The position numbers and the translations under genes were made by a program. Shown one piece after another: positions 26,800 through 38,818 of a stretch of DNA of 64,000 bases; the first letter of the stretch is position 1; every line of letters begins with the position of its first letter. The DNA comes from Acuticoccus sp. MNP-M23. Its GTDB lineage: Bacteria > Pseudomonadota > Alphaproteobacteria > Rhizobiales > Amorphaceae. The notes beneath the pieces are model-generated. The model had not been told where the DNA came from. It saw only the letters and a program-made list of their open reading frames with translations, and made no database searches. The stretch spans positions 1,240,001 through 1,304,000 of the forward strand of contig NZ_CP133480.1 of NCBI RefSeq assembly GCF_031195445.1, read 5' to 3'.

Positions 26800-27738
26800 T
26801 CACGGACCCGGTGAAGCAACCTCCGTGTCCCTTCCGGCCGCGGCCGGGGCGCCTGGCGCTACGTCGCCCCCGGCGTTCTCCAGCAACGTTTCGATGGCGG
26901 GGTGCTGGAACCGGCGCGGCTTGGTGACGGCGTAGAATGTCTCGACGATGCCGGGCAACCGGCAGACTTCCACCAGCGAGCCCGCTGCAATTTCATCCTT
27001 CACCACAATGGGCGGAATCACGGCAAGCCCGGCGCCCTCGCGGGCCAGCAGGCGCACCATCGCCATGTCATCGGCCTCCACGGCAATGCGCGGCGTGATC
27101 CCGAGCCGCGCCACGAGTGCATCGAACCCGACGCGGATGCCGCTTTGCATCGTCGGCACGATGAGCGGCTGCGACGACAGGCGGTCCGCCAGCGATCCCG
27201 CCTCCGATACAAACGCCAGCGCACCGATCAGGCTGGCCTCCTGCTCGGCAAGCCGGTGCGAGATCAGGTCTTTGCCGGCTTCGTCCCCGGGCGGCTGATT
27301 CAGCATGATGAGGTCGAGGCTGAGCCCTTCCAGCCTGCCCAGCAACTCTTCGGCGGTGCCTGAACGCAGGACAACATCGACGCCCGTTCCCAGCAAGGGC
27401 CGCACGGCGCCAAGCACGAAGTTGCGCGACAGCGTTGCCAGCGCGCCGATCCGCACCGTGGGCCGCACATAGTCCGCATGGCGCAGCGCTGCGACCAGCT
27501 GCTCGCCGGTGGCGAAGATGGCGTCGGCATGGTCGAGCGCAAGGCGGCCTGCTTCGGTGAGCGAGAGCTGCCGGCCGCTGCGCTCGAAGAGCGGGTGGCC
27601 AAGCCGCTGTTCCAGCTGGCGGATCTGCACCGACAGGGCCGACTGGGACACATTCAGCAGCTTTGCCGTGCGCGTCAGGTTTCCCTCGCGCGCCACGGCC
27701 CGGAAATAGCGCAGATGATGATAGTTCAGATCCGGCAT
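26800..27738 (-). CDS. LysR-family regulator divergent from dabBA
   Basis: 312 aa. The N-terminal helix-turn-helix NYHHLRYFRAVAREGNLTRTAKLLNVSQSALSVQIRQLE (two-part motif, residues 4-42) has the NhaR-like opening NYxHLxYF. A periplasmic-binding-type effector domain fills the rest. Divergent placement 113 bases from dabB matches the LysR genes that often accompany inorganic-carbon uptake operons, so it probably controls dabBA-cysD. The last 20 residues are Ala/Pro/Gly-rich and non-conserved. Effector unknown; bicarbonate/CO2-related metabolites or Na+/pH are possibilities by family analogy. Confidence 0.92.
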   Translation of the reverse strand: MPDLNYHHLRYFRAVAREGNLTRTAKLLNVSQSALSVQIRQLEQRLGHPLFERSGRQLSLTEAGRLALDHADAIFATGEQLVAALRHADYVRPTVRIGALATLSRNFVLGAVRPLLGTGVDVVLRSGTAEELLGRLEGLSLDLIMLNQPPGDEAGKDLISHRLAEQEASLIGALAFVSEAGSLADRLSSQPLIVPTMQSGIRVGFDALVARLGITPRIAVEADDMAMVRLLAREGAGLAVIPPIVVKDEIAAGSLVEVCRLPGIVETFYAVTKPRRFQHPAIETLLENAGGDVAPGAPAAAGRDTEVASPGP

Positions 27739-27851: not shown

Positions 27852-29423
27852 ATGCTCAACATCCTTCCTCTGGCCGGTCCGCTGGTTCTGCTTCTTGCTT
27901 CGTTCGTGGCCTTCGCTGGCCCGGCCATGCGCCCGCGGCGCACGCTCATCACCGCCGAATATGCCGCAATTGCGAGCATTGCCGTTGCGGCAGCATCTGC
28001 CGTGCTGCTGGTGGTCGCCGGCCCCGGCACGTCACCTCGTCTTGGTGGCGCCACCCTATCGCTGGCAAGCCGGCTGGATGCCATCAGCGTCATCATGCTG
28101 CTGCTGGTCTCGGCCATCGGCTGGGTGGTCGTTCGTTTTTCGTCAACCTACCTCGACGGGGAGCACGGGCAGGGCCGCTTTACCGGCTGGCTGTGCCTCA
28201 CCCTCAGCGCGATCCTCCTGTTCGTGCAGGCGGGCACGCTCACCCAGCTGGCGTTGGCGTGGGTGGCCGCGAGCCTGTGCCTGCGCCAGCTGCTGCTGTT
28301 TTATCGGCAACGGCAGGGGGCCCGGCGTGCGGCGCGCAAGGAGTTCATCGTCTCGCGGCTCAGCGACATTGCGCTGATCGGGGCCTCCGTCATCCTCATC
28401 TTTCGGTTCGGTACCGACGATATCGAGAGCATTCTGTCCGCCGTCAGCGCAGAGCCCGCCTCGTCCGGGGTTCTTGCTGCCGCCGGGCTCCTTGCTGCGG
28501 CCGCCCTCCTGAAATCCGCGCAATTCCCGTTCCACGGCTGGCTCAGCGAAGTGATGGAAACACCGACGCCGGTGTCGGCGCTCCTCCACGCCGGGGTCAT
28601 CAACGCTGGCGGCTTTCTCCTCATCCGCATGGCCGAAATCATGCTGGCTGCGCCGATCGCACTGGCGCTTCTGGTGATGCTGGGGGGCTTCACGGCCCTG
28701 TTCGGCGGGCTGGTGATGCTGACGCAGCCCGCGGCCAAGACCTCGCTTGCATGGTCCACCGTGGCGCAGATGGGGTTCATGATCCTTCAGTGCGGGCTGG
28801 CGCTGTTCCCTCTCGCGCTGCTGCACATCGTGGCGCACTCGCTCTACAAGGCGCACGCGCTCCTCACGGCTGGCAGCGCGGTGCAGAACATCGCGCGGAT
28901 CCGGCGGCCCGGCCCCATCGCCATCCCCGGCGGCCGCTCCGTGCTGGTCGCATTCGCCTTCGCGCTCATCATCTACGCGCTGGTCGCCGCAGGGTTCAAC
29001 GTCGTCGAGAAGTCGCCGCAGGCCATCGCGCTCGGTGCCATCCTCATCTTCGGCGTCGCCTACCTCCTGGCGCAGGGCCTCGCGGATGCCGCGCCATGGG
29101 CGCTGACGTGGCGCACCTCGCTCTACTCGGTGGGCGCAACGGTGGCCTACTTCACCCTCCAGCGCGCCGCCGAATGGCTGACAGGGGACGCCCTGCCCGC
29201 CACTCCCGCGCCGGGACCGCTGGAATGGGCGCTTCTGATCCTCGCCCTGTTCTCGTTCGGCATGGTCGCCCTGGCGCAGGCACTTCTGCCCTTGTGGTCG
29301 AACCATCCGGCCGCCGCACCCCTGCGCATTCACCTTGCCAACGGCCTTTACGCCAACGCCATCACCGACCGGATGCTCGGCTCATGGTCCCACAGCACCC
29401 TTGAAAAACGGACGGCCGGATGA
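27852..29423 (+). CDS. dabB: DabB, proton-translocating subunit of DAB inorganic-carbon accumulation complex
   Basis: 523 aa integral membrane protein of the NuoL/MrpA family, with about 13-14 helices. Features are [38 protein letters not shown], the proton-channel region shared with NADH dehydrogenase subunit 5, and [17 protein letters not shown]. Stand-alone pairing with DUF2309 (dabA) marks it as DabB, not complex I. DabB is thought to use the ion gradient to drive one-way hydration of CO2 to bicarbonate by DabA. Its TGA overlaps the dabA ATG by 4 bases. ATG 27852 has GAGAAG about 7 bases upstream; longer frames start inside the promoter region. Confidence 0.9.
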
Positions 29424-31822
29424 CCCACGCCCCCCTTCAGTCCAGCATCGTTCTCGCCGCGGCCGACGCTGCGGTCCGGGCCGTTCCCCCGCTGTGGCCG
29501 CTCGCCACCAGCGTTGCGGTCAACCCCTATCTCGGCCAGACCGGCGAGCCCCTTGCCACGACCTCTGCCCGGCTGGCGCGCGTTGCCGGCGCCAGGACAA
29601 CCATGCCGCGCGACTGGTACGCCGGTGAAATTGCCAGTGGCCAGATCTCCGATGCCGACCTTGCAGCCGCAATCGACGCTTCAGGCACGCCCGGCCACAC
29701 AGCCGGAACGTTGAAAGAGGCTGCAGGCCGGGCAAAGCCGGCGGCGTTGCGCCTCCCCACGGTGGCAGACCTTGCGGCAACGGCCACCGGCACCGACTGG
29801 CCGGACATCGTTGCCGAGCGTGTCGGCGCCTTCGCATCCAGCCAACTGGACGACGGACAGGCGCTCTGGGCAGCGCCCCGCAGCGAGGGTCTTTATCGCA
29901 CCTGGAAGGCCGGCGCGGTCCACGACCTCACGCCCGAAATTGCGGGGCTCACCGGCTTTGCGCGGTTTGCCGCCAGCGCGCCGGCGACCGCCAGCGGCGC
30001 CATCGAGCGCGCCGCCGACACGCTGTGCCTCAGCGAGGCTGCGCTGGACACCTACTTTCATGCACTGCTGATGACGCTTGGCGGCTGGTCGCAATTTGCG
30101 CGCTACCGGCTCTGGCAAGCCGAGCTTGCCGGCGAGGACGATACCACCGCGCTGGATTTTCTGGCGATCCGGCTCCTCTGGGAAGAGGCGCTGTTCTGCC
30201 ATTGCGAAGACGCGATTGGCGACACCTGGCGGGACACCGTTGCCGCCCACGCTGTCCCCGTCGCGCCCGGCGCGGACGACGAAATCGACGCGATCCTTCA
30301 GGCCGCGGCAGAACACGCCGAACAGCGGTCGTTGGCCGGTGTGCTGGCCGCCCCGGCCGAGGCTGCACCGGCGCGCCGGCCCGCGCTGCAGGCCGCCTTT
30401 TGCATCGACGTGCGGTCCGAAGTGTTCCGCAGATCTCTGGAAACGGTCGCCCCCACAATCCAGACGCTGGGGTTCGCCGGCTTTTTCGGCATCTCGACCA
30501 GCTATCACGCCTTCGCATCGGACGTGGCGGAGCGGCGGCTTCCCGTCCTCCTCAACCCCGCACTCCAGTCGCGCGCGGGGCCATCGGACCAGCGGGCGGC
30601 GGACCCGTCTGCCCGCTTCGTGGCGCGGGCAAAGCGGGCGTGGGGGCGCTTCAAGCTGGCGGCGGTGTCGTCGTTCGCCTTCGTCGAGGCGATGGGACCT
30701 GTCTACGTGACACGGCTCGTCCGCGATGCGCTCGGGCTTGGCGGGCGCCCTACGCCGGCCGACCCTGCCCCCGTCCTCTCGACCCGGCTCGGCACCGCGG
30801 AGATGGTGACCGCGGCGGCCAGCGTTCTGCGCGCCATGTCGCTCACCGAGAATTTTGCGCCCGTGGTGCTTCTCGCCGGCCATGGCGCGCGGGTGGTGAA
30901 CAACCCGCACGCCAGCGCGCTCCAGTGCGGCGCATGCGGCGGCTACTCGGGCGAAGTGAATGCGCGGCTTCTCGCGTCACTCCTGAACAATCCGGAAGTG
31001 CGGGCCGGTCTGGCGAAAGACGGCATCACCATTCCCGCCGACACGCTGTTTCTGGGCGCCCTCCACGACACCACCACCGACGCAGTCACACTCTACGCCG
31101 GCGACACCGACACCAGCCGCCACACCGCGGCGCTGGCTGAAACCAAGCGCTGGCTCGAAGCGGCCGGTGCCCTCGCGCGGGCCGAGCGCGCGCTGCGCCT
31201 GCCGGGCGCTGAGGACGGCGGCGCCGTTCTCCGGCGCGGGAGCGACTGGGCGCAGACGCGGCCCGAATGGGCGCTGGCCGGCTGCACCGCGTTCATTGCA
31301 GCGCCGCGCGATCGCACCAGCGGCAAGAGCCTGCAGGGCAAGGCGTTTCTGCACGACTACGACTGGCAGCGCGACAAGGGCTTTTCCGTGCTGGAACTCA
31401 TCCTGACGGCACCGGTGGTGGTCGCAAGCTGGATCAACCTGCAATATTACGGGTCGACCGTTGCGCCGGACGTGTTCGGCAGCGGCAACAAGCTGATCCA
31501 CAACGTCACCGGCGGAATCGGCGTTGTGGAGGGCAATGGCGGCACCCTGCGCGCCGGTCTCCCCTTCCAGTCCGTCCACAACGGCGAAGCATTCGTCCAC
31601 GCACCGCTGCGGCTTTCCGTGGCGATCGAGGCCCCGCGCGAGGCGATCAACGAGATCCTGTCCCGCCACGACGGCGTGCGCGCGCTGTTCGACAATGGCT
31701 GGCTCCACCTCTTTGCGCTGGACGATAGAGGCCGGATGGCCTGGCGGTATGCCGGCGATCTCGACTGGACACCGAACACGCTTGCGCAGACGGACCAACC
31801 CGAAACACTGCGGGTCGCATGA
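29420..31822 (+). CDS. dabA: DabA (DUF2309), carbonic-anhydrase-like subunit of DAB complex
   Basis: 800 aa. The beta-carbonic-anhydrase-like zinc site is visible: Cys328 and Asp330 in [12 protein letters not shown], His488 in [12 protein letters not shown], and Cys503 in [11 protein letters not shown]. The 15-residue His-Cys spacing equals that reported for Halothiobacillus DabA (H524, C539), and the CxD pair is also conserved. With DabB it converts incoming CO2 to bicarbonate vectorially in the cytoplasm. Translation is coupled to dabB (ATGA) and to the following cysD-like gene (ATGA at 31819-31822). No RuBisCO or carboxysome gene is in the window, so in this probable heterotroph it more likely supplies bicarbonate for carboxylases. 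Confidence 0.93.
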
Positions 31823-32715
31823 TGGCGCTATCCCCCAACCTGGCCTACCTCGAGAGCGAGGCCATTCACATCATCCGGGATGGCTTTGCCGAGGCGAAGC
31901 GGCCTGTGGTTCTGTTCTCGGGCGGCAAGGATTCCACCGTCCTTGCCCATCTCGTCCTCCGCGCATTCTACCCGGCGCCCCCGCCGATCCCGCTGCTGCA
32001 TGTGGACTCCACCTGGGAGTTTCGCGAGGTGGTGGAATTTCGCGACCGGTTCGCCCGCAACCACGGCTTCGACCTCGTGGTGAAAGCCAACGAGGAGGGC
32101 CGGCGCCAGAACATCAACCCGTTCGAGCACGGTGACACCTACACCACCATGATGCGCACCGATCCCTTGAAGGCGGCGCTGACCGATGGCGGCTACGACG
32201 TCATCTTCGGCGGTGCCCGGCGGGACGAGGAGGCAAGCCGCGCCAAGGAGCGCATTGCATCCGTTCGCAATGCAAACCACGGCTGGGAGCCCCGCAACCA
32301 GCGGCCTGAGCTTTGGCGCAGCTACAACTGGCGGCTCGGCAAGGGTCAGTCGATCCGCGCCTACCCCATCTCCAACTGGACCGAACACGATTTGTGGACC
32401 TATATCCGCATGCGCGAGATTGAACTGGCGCCGCTTTATTTTGCGGCCGACCGTCCGGTTGTCGTGCGCGACGGTTTGCGCCTTGTGGTGGACGATGACG
32501 CCCGGATGCAGTGGCGTGACGGCGAAACCCCGACGATGGAGAAGGTGCGCTTCCGCACGCTCGGCTGCTGGCCCGTCACCGGGGCAGACCCGTCCGACGC
32601 CGACCATATCGACGCGGTGATGTACGAAACGCTGACGTCCGGCATGTCGGAGCGGCGCGGCCGGGTCAGCGACAGCGGGTCTCTGGAGCGCCAGAAGCGG
32701 GATGGTTATTTCTGA
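31819..32715 (+). CDS. CysD-like ATP sulfurylase small subunit (PP-loop), no cysN partner
   Basis: 298 aa, full length for CysD. The PP-loop SGGKDS is at residues 34-39, followed by [65 protein letters not shown] and the C-terminal [20 protein letters not shown]-type end. CysD normally works with the GTPase CysN to make adenylyl-sulfate (APS). Here cysN is absent: the gene starts inside the dabA stop (ATG 31819, or 31822) and is followed by a zinc-chaperone GTPase gene. HVDSTW replaces the usual HVDTGW. It may be a paralogue with a role tied to DabA, or the housekeeping gene with cysN elsewhere. Confidence 0.88.
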
Positions 32716-32752
32716 CCGCCGGCGCCGCCAAGGCGCTCTGGCACCATCACGA

Positions 32753-32769
32753 ATGTTACAATATAACAT
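32753..32769. promoter_or_regulatory. Zur-type operator upstream of COG0523 gene
   Basis: ATGTTACAATATAACAT is a 17-bp palindrome with one mismatch, matching the proteobacterial Zur core TGTTATA-N-TATAACA. It lies 37 bases after the cysD-like stop and 77 bases before the GTPase start, where a repressor would block a promoter. It stands out as AT-rich in GC-rich surroundings. Confidence 0.75.
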
Positions 32770-32845
32770 CCCTTTCGGCGGCTGAACGGACCCGGATGAC
32801 ACCCGGCCCGACCAGTCTGCTTGCAGGGCAATTGAAGGAGTTCTG

Positions 32846-33931
32846 ATGATCGACCGGACCAGGCAGACCCCTGTCATCATCCTCACCGGCTTTCTGGGCG
32901 CGGGCAAATCCACGCTGCTGCGCCAGCTCCTTGAGGGGCCGGGGGCGGAGGGCACCGGCCTGATCATCAACGAGTTCGGCGATGTTGCGGTGGACCACGA
33001 GCTGGTTGCCGCTGGCCTGCGGGACGTTGCGGTCACCAGCACAGGCTGCATCTGCTGCACCGCGGGCAGCGATATTCGCGCCTCGGTGGCCGAGGTGCAC
33101 GAAGCTGCGCGGGCAACCGGCCGGCTGCCCCTCAACTGCGTGGTTGTGGAAACCACCGGCCTCGCCGACCCCGCCCCGGTGGTGAACCAGCTTGTGGCGG
33201 GCGCCGTGCCGGCCCTTGGCCTGCGGGACCATACGGTCGCCAGGCACTACCGTCTTGCGGGCGTTGTCGCGGTGTTCGACGCGGTGGAGGGACCGGACAC
33301 GCTGAAGCACCACCCCGAAGCGGTGAAACAGCTCGCCTTCGCCGACCGCATCCTCATCACCAAGACCGACCTTCTGCCGGAAGTGGCGCGCGCAGAACGG
33401 CACGACACGCTCCGCACCCTCATTGAACGCATCAACCGGACGGCGACCATCGAGGATGTGCAGGGGCCATCCTTCACGCTCAGCGACGCATTTCGGCCGC
33501 GCCCCTACGCGCCTGCCGACCTTGGCGACGATGTGGAGGCGTGGCTGGGCGAGGCTGATGGTGACAACCATGACCACCATCATCACGGCCACGACATGGC
33601 GGCGGGTTCCGGCATTCGCACGGTGAGCCTCACGCTGGATCAGCCGATCACGCAGGACGCCCTTGCCCGCACGATGGACCTCATCGGCGTGTTTCTCGGC
33701 CCGCGCCTGTTGCGGCTGAAGGGCATCATCGCCTTTGCCGACGCGCCGGAGACACCGCACGTGCTGCAGGTGGTGCAACACGTGGTCCACCCGCTCGCCC
33801 TCCTCGAGGCGTGGCCGGGCGATGACCACCGCACCCGCATTGTCGCGATCACTTCCGGCGTGGACCCGGGCGAGATCGAAAAGATCTTCGCCAACCTCAA
33901 GTCCGCGCCTGTCCGCGAACCGGCGGTCTGA
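32846..33931 (+). CDS. COG0523 (CobW/ZNG1-like) G3E GTPase, probable zinc metallochaperone
   Basis: 361 aa. Walker A is GFLGAGKST (residues 15-23), followed by the metal-binding CxCC motif at 68-71 (GCICCT), ETTGLADPAPV and the guanine-specificity ITKTDL. A His-rich loop (DNHDHHHHGHD, near 238-249) leads into the CobW C-terminal domain. Such GTPases deliver zinc or another metal to client enzymes. A Zur-like box upstream indicates induction when zinc is scarce. GGAGTT lies about 7 bases before ATG 32846. DabA, a zinc enzyme encoded two genes upstream, is an obvious client candidate. The class also has cobalt and nitrile-hydratase iron chaperones, but context favours zinc. Confidence 0.92.
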   Translation: MIDRTRQTPVIILTGFLGAGKSTLLRQLLEGPGAEGTGLIINEFGDVAVDHELVAAGLRDVAVTSTGCICCTAGSDIRASVAEVHEAARATGRLPLNCVVVETTGLADPAPVVNQLVAGAVPALGLRDHTVARHYRLAGVVAVFDAVEGPDTLKHHPEAVKQLAFADRILITKTDLLPEVARAERHDTLRTLIERINRTATIEDVQGPSFTLSDAFRPRPYAPADLGDDVEAWLGEADGDNHDHHHHGHDMAAGSGIRTVSLTLDQPITQDALARTMDLIGVFLGPRLLRLKGIIAFADAPETPHVLQVVQHVVHPLALLEAWPGDDHRTRIVAITSGVDPGEIEKIFANLKSAPVREPAV

Positions 33932-33952: not shown

Positions 33953-34804
33953 CTACGGCGTGCGCAACATCGCCAGAAGATCGCGGCACAACACGCTGTC
34001 CGGGTTCGCAAAATGCTCCAGAACCTCGAAATGGTTGCAGCCCGGCAAAAGGGTGCACGTACCGGAAAGGCCTGCAGCCTCGCGGGCGGCGTGGTATTCG
34101 TCGGTCTGGCGGCGCAGTTCCGGCAGCTCGTCGCCCCCCACATAAAGGCAGGTTGGTGCCGCAAGGTCCGCTGCAATCCGCAGCGGGCTCAGCGCTTCCA
34201 CCTCCGCCGGGGTGAGATGCAGCGCAGCATCGAGATAGCTGGCCGCGATGGGCTCCAGATCGAATATGCCGCTGATGGGCATGACGCCGCGAATGGCTGC
34301 CGAACGCGCCGCCATCGCGGCCAGATGCCCGCCCGCTGACCAGCCGCCGACCACAACGGCATCCCGGCTGAAGGCAGGGGCACCGGCATCGCGCATCAGC
34401 GCCTCAAGCGCGAGGTCTATTTCGGAGACGATCTGCGTCAGCGTCGCCTCCGGCGCCAGCGTGTATCCGACGAGCGCGACGTTGATTCCAAGCGGATGGA
34501 GACCCTCTGCCACAAACGCGAACATCTCCTTTGCGTTGCGCTGCCAGTAGCCGCCGTGGATGAACACGAACAGCGGCCCGCCTTCGCCCGGCGCGGGCAG
34601 AAAGTCGGTGCAGGTCCGCGCGCCATCGGCGTAGGGCCGGTCCAGCACGGCGCCGGGGCGCGCGCGCATGATTTCGCTGCGCGCGGTCCAGTCAGCCAGA
34701 TAATTCTGGACGTTTGGCACGGCCTTGCTGTTGTCGTAGGCGGCGTCGAGGGTCTGCTGGTCCCAGTCGCGGTAGACGGGGGCGGACGGGTTTCGCGTGC
34801 TCAC
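33953..34804 (-). CDS. Alpha/beta hydrolase, arylformamidase/HSL-esterase-like
   Basis: 283 aa. The oxyanion-hole motif HGGYW is followed by nucleophile Ser in GGWSAGGHLAA, Asp in VGGDELPE and His in PGCNHFEVLEHF. The N-terminal pattern DQQTLDAAYDNSKAVPN and the HGGYWQ motif match bacterial proteins annotated as kynurenine formamidase-like or carboxylesterase. No tryptophan-breakdown genes are near, so the substrate is open. Converges on the COG0523 gene with 21 bases between stops. Confidence 0.85.
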   Translation of the reverse strand: MSTRNPSAPVYRDWDQQTLDAAYDNSKAVPNVQNYLADWTARSEIMRARPGAVLDRPYADGARTCTDFLPAPGEGGPLFVFIHGGYWQRNAKEMFAFVAEGLHPLGINVALVGYTLAPEATLTQIVSEIDLALEALMRDAGAPAFSRDAVVVGGWSAGGHLAAMAARSAAIRGVMPISGIFDLEPIAASYLDAALHLTPAEVEALSPLRIAADLAAPTCLYVGGDELPELRRQTDEYHAAREAAGLSGTCTLLPGCNHFEVLEHFANPDSVLCRDLLAMLRTP

Positions 34805-35124: not shown

Positions 35125-37338
35125 TCAGCCGGCGTCGGGCAATCCCGCTGCGAGGAGCTTGTCCAGCGTCACCGGAAATTCGCGCACGCGGATGCCAGTG
35201 GCGTTGTAGATCGCGTTGACGATCGCACCCGCCGCACCGCAGACGCCGAGTTCTCCAATCCCCTTGACCTGCATGGGGTTGGCCCAGTCGTCGCGCTCTT
35301 CGAGGAGGATCACCTCGATCTGCGGCACGTCGAGGTTCACCGGCAGGTGGTATTCGGCAAGGTCGCGGTTGACGATGTGGCCATCGCGCGTGTCGTGAAC
35401 CATGTCTTCGGTCAGCGCCATGCCGATGCCCCACGTCATCCCGCCAAGGCACTGGGACCGGGCGGTCTTGTGGTTGAGGATGCGGCCGGCGGCAAACGTG
35501 CCGTGCATCCGCCGCACGCGCGTTTCGCCGGTTACTGCGTTGACCGCAACTTCGGCAAAGTAGGCGCCGAAGGTGGATTGGCGGACCGCGCTGTCTGTCT
35601 TGCCGGGCTCCATGTGCCCTTCGACCGCAATGTCCTCGCCGTCCAGCAGCGTCTCGATGGCCACCTTCCGGTTGCCCGCAATGGCGAAGCCGTCCTTGAG
35701 GGTCAGATCATCGTCGGTCGTATCCAGCTTTTCGGCCAGCGTCGCCCGGATCTCCTGGCAGGCGATGAACACCGCGCTGCCATCGGACGCCGCGCCCCAC
35801 GAACCGCCCGACCCGGCGCCCGGCGGCAGAACCGTGTCACCGAGCGTGCTGGTCACCCGGTCCATGGGCAGTCCCAGCATTTCCGCCGCAATCTGCGTGA
35901 GGATCGTGTAGGTGCCGGTGCCGATGTCCGTCATGTCGGTTTCGACGGTCGCCTTGCCGTCGGCGCGCAGCGTCACGCGGGCCTTGGCCTCCATCGTCAT
36001 GTTCACGCGCACGGCAGAGGCCATGCCGGTGCCGATCAGCCACTCGCCCTCACGCCACATGCCGGGCGTCTTGCTGCGCTTGTCCCAGCCGAAGGCATCG
36101 GCCCCGGTGCGCAGCGCCTCGCCCAGCGTGTGCGACGAGAACGGAATGTGCGCCGAAGGATCCTCGTCCGGAATGTTGACGAGCCGCAGCTCCACCGGGT
36201 CCATGCCCAGTGTTTCGGCAAGCTCGTCCATGGCGCATTCCAGCACCGGGATGCCGATGGCCTCGCCCGGCGCACGGACGGAGCCCGCCGCAGGACGATG
36301 GATGCGCGCCACCTTGTGGACGATCTCGCGATTTTCGCCGCGGTAGAGGTAAGGCGTTGCCTGGGTGACCGGCTCGGAAAACACCTCGTTGGGCAGGTTG
36401 GACACCAGCGACTCGTGGCCGATGCCTGTAAGCTGCCCGTCCGCGCCTGCCGCAAGACGGATGCGCTGGCGCGACTCCGAGCGCCGATAAACCGCCTCGA
36501 TGGTCTGCGGCCGCGTCATCGCCACCGACACGGGCCGGTTCAGCTGCATTGCCGCAAGCGATGCGGCAACCGCTTCGGAGGCAATGCCCAGCTTGGAGCC
36601 GAAACCACCGCCCACGTAAGGCGCCAGCACCCGCACGTTCTCGGTGTCGATCCCCACCGCGTCGGCCAGTTCGATGCGGTTATACTTCAGCATCTGGTAC
36701 GAGCCGCGCAGCGTGAGCGTCTTCCCGTCCCAGTGCGCCACGGAGGCATGGGGCTCCATTGCGGCGGACGAATGCCCGGCGGTGCGGTAGGTCACATCCA
36801 CCGTGTGCGGCGCGCTTTGCATGGCGCCATCAAGGTCGCCCTGGCTGGCCTGATCGTCTTCCGGCGTTTCCACCTCGGCATCCGGCGCTTCGGGGTTCAC
36901 AACCGCTGCTTCGGGGTCGATCTTCACCTGAAGGGTGAAGGCGCCGTGCCGCGCCTGTTCAAAGCTTTCCGCCACCACCAGCGCCACAATCTGGCCCAGA
37001 TAGTCCACGCGGGACGATGCGTTCTGCACCGGCGCATCGGTGGCCATGCCCTGCGCCGCGTTGCGGATGAAACGGTCGCCATAGACCACTGCAACCACGC
37101 CCGGCATCGCCTCCACGGCGTCTGCCTCGATGGCGGTCACCGTGCCCCTGGTGACCGGCGCGCGGACCAGCACGCCATGCAGCATGCCGTCCATCTTGTA
37201 ATCATTGGCGTAGGTTGCGGTGCCGGAGACCTTGAGCGGACCATCCGGCCGGTCGACGGGCTTGCCGATAACGCCTTGCGCCATCTCGTCCAGCCGGTGC
37301 CTGGTGACCGGCGCGTCCATCTTGAAATGCGCGTTCAT
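35125..37338 (-). CDS. Molybdenum-binding subunit of xanthine dehydrogenase-family aldehyde oxidoreductase (PaoC-like)
   Basis: 737 aa, close to the E. coli PaoC size. Domain order: aldehyde oxidase a/b hammerhead (about 25-135), then the molybdopterin-binding part with [20 protein letters not shown] and the catalytic glutamate in [11 protein letters not shown]. It should bind Mo-MCD or MPT-cytosine and hydroxylate aldehydes or N-heterocycles. ATG 37338 overlaps the FAD-subunit stop (ATGA). Last gene of a small-medium-large order, as in paoABC. A PaoD/XdhC-like maturation gene is not present in the window. Substrate unknown. Confidence 0.92.
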
Positions 37339-38318
37339 GCCTCGCCTTTCGTCGCCTCGGAGAGAACCGCTTTCAGCGTTCGCCGCACGAGGGGAATCTT
37401 GAAATCGTTGCTGCCGTGGCCCGTGGCATCCACGAGAAGCGCGTCGGCCGCGCGGTCGAACAGGTCGGCCGAGGGTGTTTCGCCTTCCAGCAGTGCCTCA
37501 ATGTCGGTGTTGCGCCACGGCTTGTGAGCGAGACCGCCGAACGCCAGCCGCACCGTGCGCATGGTGCCGCCTTCCATCCGCACAACGGCGGCGATGGACA
37601 CCAGCGCAAAGGCGTAGGACGCACGGTCGCGCACCTTGCGGTAGATCTGACGGGACGGAACGGGTGCCGGCAGCCGCACGGCGACAATCAGCTCGCCCGG
37701 CGCAAGCTCGGTTTCGACGTCGGGCGTGTCGCCGGCAAGGCGATGAAACGACATAAGCGGGATTTCGCGCGTGCCGTTCGGGCCGTCCACCTCCACGACG
37801 GCTTCCAGCGCCTGCATGGCCACGGCCATGTCGCTCGGGTGCGTGGCGATGCACTGCTCGCTTGCGCCGAGAATGGCGTGGATGCGGTTGAAGCCGCCGA
37901 TGGCGCTGCACCCCGTGCCCGGCTCACGCTTGTTGCAAGGCATGTCGGTGTCATAAAAATAGTAGCAGCGGGTGCGCTGAAGGAGATTGCCGCCGGTGGT
38001 GGCCTTGTTGCGCAATTGGCCGCTGGCCCCAGCCAGCAAGGCGCGCGACAGCACCGGGTAGTCCCGCCGCACCCGGTCATCAGCCGCCAGATCGCTGTTG
38101 GTGACCAGCGCGCCGATGCGCAGGCCGCCATCATCGCTCGGCGTGATCCGGCCCATGTCGAGCCGGGTGATGTCGACCAGACGGTCCGGCGCCATCACTT
38201 CCAGCTTCATCAGGTCCAGAAGGTTGGTGCCGCCGGCAATGAAGCGAGCCCCCTCGGCTGCGCCCGCCGCCAGCGCGTCCGCCTGCGATCCGGCCCGCGT
38301 ATATTCGAAGGGCTTCAT
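37335..38318 (-). CDS. FAD-binding subunit of molybdenum hydroxylase (PaoB-like)
   Basis: 327 aa from ATG 38318. FAD-binding signature [14 protein letters not shown] near the N terminus, [18 protein letters not shown] in the middle, and the CO-dehydrogenase flavoprotein C-terminal domain after about 215. The cysteine-rich stretch around [21 protein letters not shown] resembles the extra [4Fe-4S] insertion of PaoB-type subunits. Overlaps both neighbours by 4 bases. Confidence 0.92.
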
Positions 38319-38818
38319 TCCTTGCCTCCGACTTCGGCGATGGCATCCACAATGTTGGCGTAGGCCGCACAGCGGCACAGATTTCCGCTCATCCGCTCGG
38401 AAATCTCGTCGTTGGTGAGCGACTGGGTCCCCTCAAGATCCTCCGAAACGTTGGACGGCCATCCGGCCTTCACCTCGTCCAGCATCGCGGTGGCCGAACA
38501 GATCTGGCCGGGCGTGCAGAAGCCGCACTGGTAGCCGTCGTGCCGGACGAACGCGTCCTGCAGCGGAGACAGCGCGCCCGGCTGACCGATGCCTTCGACG
38601 GTGGTGATCTCGTCACCCTCGTGCATCACCGCGAGCGACAGGCAGGAATTGATGCGCCTGCCATTCAGAATGATGGTGCAGGCGCCGCACTGGCCGTGAT
38701 CGCAACCCTTCTTGGAGCCGGTCAGATCCAGATGATTGCGCAGCGCATCAAGCAGCGTGGTGCGCGGATCAACGTCGAGCGATCGCGGCTCGCCGTTGAC
38801 CTTGAGTTGGATTTGCAT
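38315..38818 (-). CDS. [2Fe-2S] subunit of molybdenum hydroxylase (PaoA-like)
   Basis: 167 aa from ATG 38818, preceded by AAAGGGGGAG. Two ferredoxin-like clusters: plant-type [11 protein letters not shown] with a following Cys (INSC), and the all-helical domain CGFCTPGQ plus NLCRCAAY. E. coli PaoA has a Tat signal; this subunit has none, so the complex should stay in the cytoplasm. First gene of the three-gene operon, 91 bases after the GH5 gene on the same strand; a promoter in that gap is likely but not resolved. Confidence 0.93.

Follow-up and report, generated by a model that had tools for sequence, protein, structure and literature searches.

We found that a cysD-like gene is joined to dabA in what appears to be an inorganic-carbon-uptake operon, and that CysD homologues lacking a CysN neighbour recur beside dabA in other bacteria, with glutamate in place of a conserved lysine. 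We think it somewhat probable that the genes LysR-dabB-dabA-cysD form such an operon, in which a repurposed, CysN-free CysD acts in bicarbonate use and not in sulfate assimilation, and that the COG0523 GTPase gene located behind them is separate. Many bacteria without CO2 fixation have DAB complexes. The ORF list of the window (the whole 64-kb stretch of DNA analysed), judged by eye, fits the statement in the original prediction that no carbon-fixation genes are in view.

Organization of the dabB-dabA-cysD locus

The cassette begins with dabB (27852-29423, plus strand), which encodes the proton-conducting membrane subunit (Pfam Proton_antipo_M, 1.6e-39), followed on the same strand by dabA (29420-31822), which encodes the beta-CA-like subunit (Pfam DabA, PF10070, 1.4e-256), and by the cysD-like gene (31819-32715; Pfam PAPS_reduct, 1.5e-45; CysD by NCBIfam). 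ORF coordinates and sequence place a 4-bp ATGA overlap at each junction, at 29420-29423 between dabB and dabA and at 31819-31822 between dabA and cysD. A Zur-like box, ATGTTACAATATAACAT (32753-32769, plus strand), is an operator-type match upstream of the COG0523 GTPase gene (32846-33931, plus strand; Pfam cobW, 8.3e-38, and CobW_C, 9.1e-18). Together, the ORFs, the Pfam matches and the sequence bear out this layout as it had originally been described. To it we add a divergent LysR-family regulator gene (26800-27738, minus strand; Pfam HTH_1 and LysR_substrate), which is a member of the conserved module; its product scores under every NCBIfam cut-off, the nearest model being NhaR (115.9 against a cut-off of 219). 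Annotations of Mesorhizobium terrae and of Mesorhizobium sp. INR15 show the same ATGA overlap between dabA and cysD. Judged from the sequence, cysD is translationally coupled to dabA.

A simple scan between cysD and the COG0523 gene found neither a terminator nor a sigma-70 promoter, a result that speaks neither for nor against a common transcript. An alpha/beta hydrolase gene of the hormone-sensitive-lipase-like type (33953-34804, minus strand; Pfam/NCBIfam) converges on the COG0523 gene. Further downstream of the cassette, at 35125-38378 on the minus strand, are two ORFs that, by eye, we take to encode molybdenum hydroxylase subunits of the xanthine dehydrogenase/aldehyde oxidase type.

The DabBA core and its distribution

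DabA aligned across almost its full length with the solved DabA2 structure (9rd0_A, E 1.5e-174), and C328, D330, R332, H488 and C503 align with DabA2 residues C351, D353, R355, H524 and C539. The accessible part of the DAB2 paper (PMC13144422) names the zinc ligands of DabA2 (Cys, His, Cys) and its Asp-Arg dyad. By this alignment, DabA carries the zinc and catalytic residues of DabA2, and the beta-carbonic-anhydrase-type zinc site that had been predicted for it holds at the level of residues (C328, H488 and C503, with D330 and R332). In having DabA (PF10070) beside DabB, the locus also has the genes that define a DAB/DAC system. It resembles DAB2 of Halothiobacillus neapolitanus (DabA2/DabB2), which, as described in the accessible part of PMC13144422, has a two-gene core, beta-CA-like zinc-site residues and an Mrp/NuoL-like membrane subunit. 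Unlike DAB2, the locus has a dabA-coupled cysD and a divergent LysR, and carboxysome genes are absent from the window. It also resembles the clade A YbcC/COG3002 operons of the COGNAT paper (PMC5700660), in which a divergent LysR and a NuoL homologue precede YbcC; the clade A neighbours given in the accessible part of that paper are LysR, PII, sulfate permease and NuoM, with CysD, DUF6671 and COG0523 absent there.

DabA was present in 48 of the 347 genomes sampled from the order (probably Hyphomicrobiales), and in a phylum-wide sample a DabA match was found in 69 of 398 genomes, 68 of them above the cut-off. The other DabA genomes of the order, 47 in number, supplied 49 further dabA loci, 43 of which include at least 3 kb downstream of dabA. 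The gene dabB adjoins dabA in 45 of these 49 loci, a divergent LysR lies within 1.5 kb of dabB in 38, and a CysD is present in nine. Most of the 11 loci without LysR start at a contig end; three of them (L004, L023 and L032) do have DNA there.

We considered, and rejected, the idea that DAB stands in for a missing carbonic anhydrase. The window genome has one beta-carbonic anhydrase, and this enzyme (PF00484; beta class only) is absent from 8 of 48 DabA genomes, compared with 40 of 299 genomes without DabA. Because DabA genomes are not poorer in beta-CA, DAB is no simple CA substitute.

CysD homologues near dabA lack a CysN neighbour

The window CysD retains the PP-loop and most CysD residues. 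Relative to the NCBIfam cut-offs, it scores over that of PRK05253 (377.3 against 195) and under those of TIGR02039 (392.3 against 396.6) and PRK12563 (402.3 against 413). It belongs to the fold family of the CysD subunit of CysDN ATP sulfurylase (1zun, Pseudomonas), which it matches over nearly its full length (E 2.7e-94). Unlike that enzyme, it has no adjacent CysN, it has Glu for Lys, and it falls under two CysD model cut-offs. No CysN was found within 3 kb of it; the one CysN of the genome lies 120 kb away beside another CysD, as part of a separate cysDN pair, and the genome also has cysH.

To place this gene among its homologues, we drew on a set of 50 genomes: the 48 DabA genomes and two that have DUF6671 but no DabA. 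These hold 67 CysD places, 54 of which have CysN within 3 kb. Eleven of the 13 places without CysN are no more than 4.4 kb from dabA or DUF6671, and the other two are short fragments. The set of linked CysDs was identical when all 51 DabA places were used, and the next nearest CysD, 16 kb off, is paired with CysN. Within the order, 10 of the 48 DabA genomes have a CysD no further than 4.4 kb from dabA, and these 10 fall into nine family codes; chance would put about 0.2 CysDs inside 6 kb of dabA, against the 10 observed. Among 65 further DabA genomes of the phylum sample, 22 have a CysD and three have one beside dabA; two of these three cases come from one genus, with CysD on the opposite strand. 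Since 38 of the 48 order genomes and 62 of the 65 phylum genomes have no CysD beside dabA, CysD is optional to the system. The survey of DabA neighbourhoods suggested with the original prediction gave a split answer: cysD recurs, and COG0523 is absent from the 49 other order loci. The DAB-related role proposed for the CysD-like protein is supported to the extent that recurrence near dabA can show it.

The association extends to plasmids and, in part, to another transporter. On the Mesorhizobium terrae plasmid NZ_CP044217, the order is LysR, dabB, DUF2309 (DabA), cysD and DUF6671, the last three genes overlapping, and Mesorhizobium sp. INR15 has the same gene order. The Methylocystis rosea plasmid pGW6_1 (L272) carries LysR, dabB, dabA, bioD, ccrA, cysD and bioA. 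These three (M. terrae, INR15 and M. rosea) were the plasmids, among 356 plasmid records, with a CysD at 60-80% identity to that of the window, and in all three it is dab-linked. At one locus (L085), which reads LysR, Sbt_1, DUF6671 and CysD, an SbtA-family transporter takes the place of DAB. Another (L084, in genome G224) is a cluster of CysD, CysN and DUF6671 without DAB, and holds the only linked CysD with an adjacent CysN.

CysD was not mentioned in the accessible parts of the DIC-toolkit review (PMC10880623), of PMC13144422, of Haas 2009 or of the Paracoccus zinc paper. Literature joining DUF2309/UPF0753/YbcC with cysD was not found in a search that covered few subscription journals.

Unpaired linked CysDs share a Lys-to-Glu change

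In a tree of 58 CysDs, 11 linked CysDs, including that of the window, form one clade (support 100/99) composed of alpha- and gammaproteobacterial records, Rhodanobacter among them; this cross-class composition suggests transfer. The remaining linked CysDs sit on separate branches. Linkage changes five times on the tree, three of these changes being forced, and the three may equal one gain plus two losses.

At the site of residue 67 of the window protein, all 19 unpaired linked CysDs of the tree have Glu, whereas the 38 other CysDs, for part of which CysN adjacency was checked, have Lys (34), Asp (two) or Asn (two). One CysN-paired protein (G293) has Asp, and the linked CysD of G224, with its adjacent CysN, keeps Lys. 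The presence of Glu requires four changes on the tree, three of them forced. Similarly, a more distant CysD-like protein outside the tree (G022, locus L025) aligns Glu at this site, and among the plasmid CysDs we found Glu in the three dab-linked proteins and Lys in one that is CysN-paired.

DUF6671 is a second recurrent partner

A widespread, uncharacterised family, DUF6671 (PF20376), also recurs downstream of dabA. It occurs in 13 of the 347 order genomes, 11 of which also have DabA (base rate 48/347; hypergeometric 7.6e-9, with genomes counted as independent of kinship), and it lies within 4 kb of dabA in nine order genomes, at loci among L008-L042. In the order-sample search, DUF6671 was absent from the window genome.

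A scan of named genomes gave at least 581 confirmed DUF6671 loci, of which the best 80 were analysed (L094-L173). Of these, 46 have a DAB or Sbt-family match no more than 6 kb away, and 30 of the 80 are incomplete at one end; L164, counted among the 46, has weak DabB-like matches that may belong to complex I. Most sequences used to seed the query alignment were dab-linked, so these best 80 loci lean towards dab linkage. They include records labelled as cyanobacteria, actinobacteria, Planctomycetota, Chlamydiae-type bacteria and Bacillota. Two of the DUF6671-linked transporters were checked with Pfam, and both are Sbt_1. An orphan CysD is present in eight of the best 80 of the at least 581 loci.

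The AlphaFold model of DUF6671 is confident, with a pLDDT of 94.4. No solved structure matched significantly by sequence, and no Foldseek hit of the model reached E 0.001; its best fold match, a weak one, is YjjX (1u5w, ITPase group; E 5.4e-3, TM 0.49 on the target). The presence of a zinc ribbon is suggested by four CxxC pairs close to the C-terminus. A literature search, covering few subscription journals, found no paper naming the family.

As a separate observation, nitrate/bicarbonate-type ABC genes (NrtABCD/CmpABCD, not told apart) lie within 9 kb in 12 of the best 80 DUF6671 loci, including the cyanobacterial loci L099, L135, L140 and L144, among others.

CO2-using enzymes beside dab

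PyrC, Sua5, acyl-CoA carboxylase beta, BioD and crotonyl-CoA carboxylase were each considered as regular dab neighbours, and were set aside since they are rare in the order loci: 50 loci (L004-L053) gave single matches for PyrC, FolC, IDH and CCR, and none for Sua5, BioD or acyl-CoA carboxylase beta. This rarity in the order sample leaves a theme of CO2-using enzymes weak. Elsewhere, on pGW6_1 of M. rosea, bioD, a crotonyl-CoA carboxylase/reductase gene and bioA surround cysD, a suggestive grouping in which genes for CO2 use and for biotin abound. In the best 80 DUF6671 loci, counted with no null control, PyrC (dihydroorotase) is close in 15, isocitrate dehydrogenase in 10 and Sua5-type threonylcarbamoyl-AMP synthase in 7.

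The COG0523 gene and its Zur-like box

In the original prediction, the cassette, COG0523 GTPase included, is one functional unit, and DabA receives its zinc from the GTPase. The GTPase contains GFLGAGKS at residue 15, CICC (CxCC) at 68, TKTD at 172 and HHHH at 244, and CobW_C is present. It falls outside the named sub-families, with scores of 79.9 against a cut-off of 600 for ZigA, 143.8 against 361 for the YjiA-type PRK11537, and 85.4 against 332.1 for CobW.

The Zur-like box in front of this gene is the sole exact fit to ATGTTA-N5-TAACAT in the 5.16-Mb genome, where two more sites fit with one mismatch. At three or fewer mismatches, the dyad gave 225 genome matches compared with 216 for its reversed form; since the looser dyad is no commoner than this control, only the exact match counts. 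Similarly, a genome-wide single-sequence scan with the Zur pattern GTTATNNTATAAC gave no enrichment over the reversed control (31 and 39 against 93 and 99). The box agrees at 14 of 15 bases with the Paracoccus denitrificans Zur site listed in the accessible part of the source. No other site in the window reaches 14/15, and scores of at least 12 occur three times there, two of them being both readings of the box.

A COG0523 homologue was found at E 1e-30 in 124 of the 199 order genomes searched. The closest among the matches listed have 63% (same genus, no DabA), 48% and 46% identity, and no DabA or DabB was found within the 16-18 kb around any of these three. Each is preceded by a Zur-like box, matching 13, 12 and 14 of the 15 bases of Paracoccus sites, compared with 14 in the window; from these boxes, the COG0523 sub-group appears to be Zur-regulated wherever it is located. 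None of the 49 further order dabA loci, 43 of which extend 3 kb or more past dabA, and none of the 80 DUF6671 loci (best 80 of at least 581) has a COG0523 homologue; among the loci examined, COG0523 next to dab was seen only in this genome. The Paracoccus gene pden1338 is an example of a Zur-regulated COG0523 gene and, as described in the accessible part of the source, shares with the window gene the COG0523 domains and a Zur-like box in front; the window gene differs in following a dab operon, which is a matter of position only. The counts in dabA and DUF6671 loci go against the proposed unit and, as far as COG0523 is concerned, are the outcome that the original prediction had named as refuting it; the closest homologues sit elsewhere with Zur-like boxes of their own. 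The gene is probably a separate member of the Zur regulon that neighbours dab-cysD: it would be Zur-regulated on its own and would have come to lie downstream of the operon.

Discussion

We propose that the host, probably a heterotrophic member of Hyphomicrobiales, uses the LysR-dabB-dabA-cysD operon to take up inorganic carbon. By analogy with the known DAB2 complex, the proton-motive force would drive CO2 hydration by DabBA, which would raise internal bicarbonate for biosynthetic carboxylations, and the LysR protein would control the operon. CysD would be a repurposed paralogue that has lost its CysN neighbour, has undergone the recurrent Lys-to-Glu change and has been kept with bicarbonate transporters in several lineages. 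As a PP-loop ATPase without CysN, it may carry out the ATP-dependent activation of bicarbonate or of a carboxylation substrate. Because its catalytic motifs remain, sulfate activation with the chromosomal CysN is possible as well.

This last point leads to an explanation that is plausible, if one we do not favour: the protein is an ordinary spare ATP-sulfurylase subunit, which makes APS together with the chromosomal CysN, and its place in the operon reflects co-regulation, for example because high internal bicarbonate competes with sulfate or because sulfur demand depends on CO2. The retained PP-loop and CysD residues, the PRK05253 score well over its cut-off and the cysDN pair elsewhere in the genome are all consistent with this. 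However, the Lys-to-Glu change is common to the unpaired copies, whereas the CysN-adjacent linked copy of G224 keeps Lys, and the window CysD scores under two CysD cut-offs. We regard it as quite unlikely that plasmids and islands simply carry cysD, DUF6671 and dabBA along as a group with no common function. The cross-class CysD clade, with its hint of transfer, and the finding that the three closest plasmid CysDs (of 356 plasmid records) are on dab plasmids would agree with such hitch-hiking, but separate CysD branches reach the same partners, once with an unrelated transporter, and do so with the same residue change; moreover, the genes appear translationally coupled.

Very improbable, in our judgement, is the original model of the whole cassette as one unit, with the COG0523 GTPase as the source of zinc for DabA. 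Adjacency on a common strand, the zinc residues of DabA, the CxCC motif and His-rich stretch of the GTPase and the Zur-like box speak for it; yet the partnership recurs in none of the other order dabA loci or the best 80 DUF6671 loci, homologues with Zur-like boxes are located elsewhere, and the COG0523 gene, 130 bp after cysD, is preceded by an operator of its own. We favour the reading of a bicarbonate-uptake operon with a repurposed CysD and a separate COG0523 gene.

A bolder version of this reading, which we offer with considerable doubt, is that the CysD linked to DAB represents a new enzyme, a PP-loop ATPase independent of CysN for which bicarbonate (or a compound to be carboxylated) has replaced sulfate as the molecule activated, having arisen through the same Lys-to-Glu change in several lineages. 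It would form an unrecognised accessory module of bacterial bicarbonate use with DUF6671, whose fold is ITPase/YjjX-like with a zinc ribbon and which occurs near SbtA-type and DAB transporters in many phyla.

An unpaired CysD in a bicarbonate-uptake operon recurs in unrelated bacteria and may point to a new step in bicarbonate use. Together, cysD and DUF6671, which recur beside DAB and partly beside the unrelated SbtA family, provide a handle on the fate of bicarbonate in bacteria that do not fix CO2. If CysD has changed its substrate, then the automatic annotation 'sulfate adenylyltransferase' would be wrong for a whole clade, and metabolic maps would miss a bicarbonate-using reaction.
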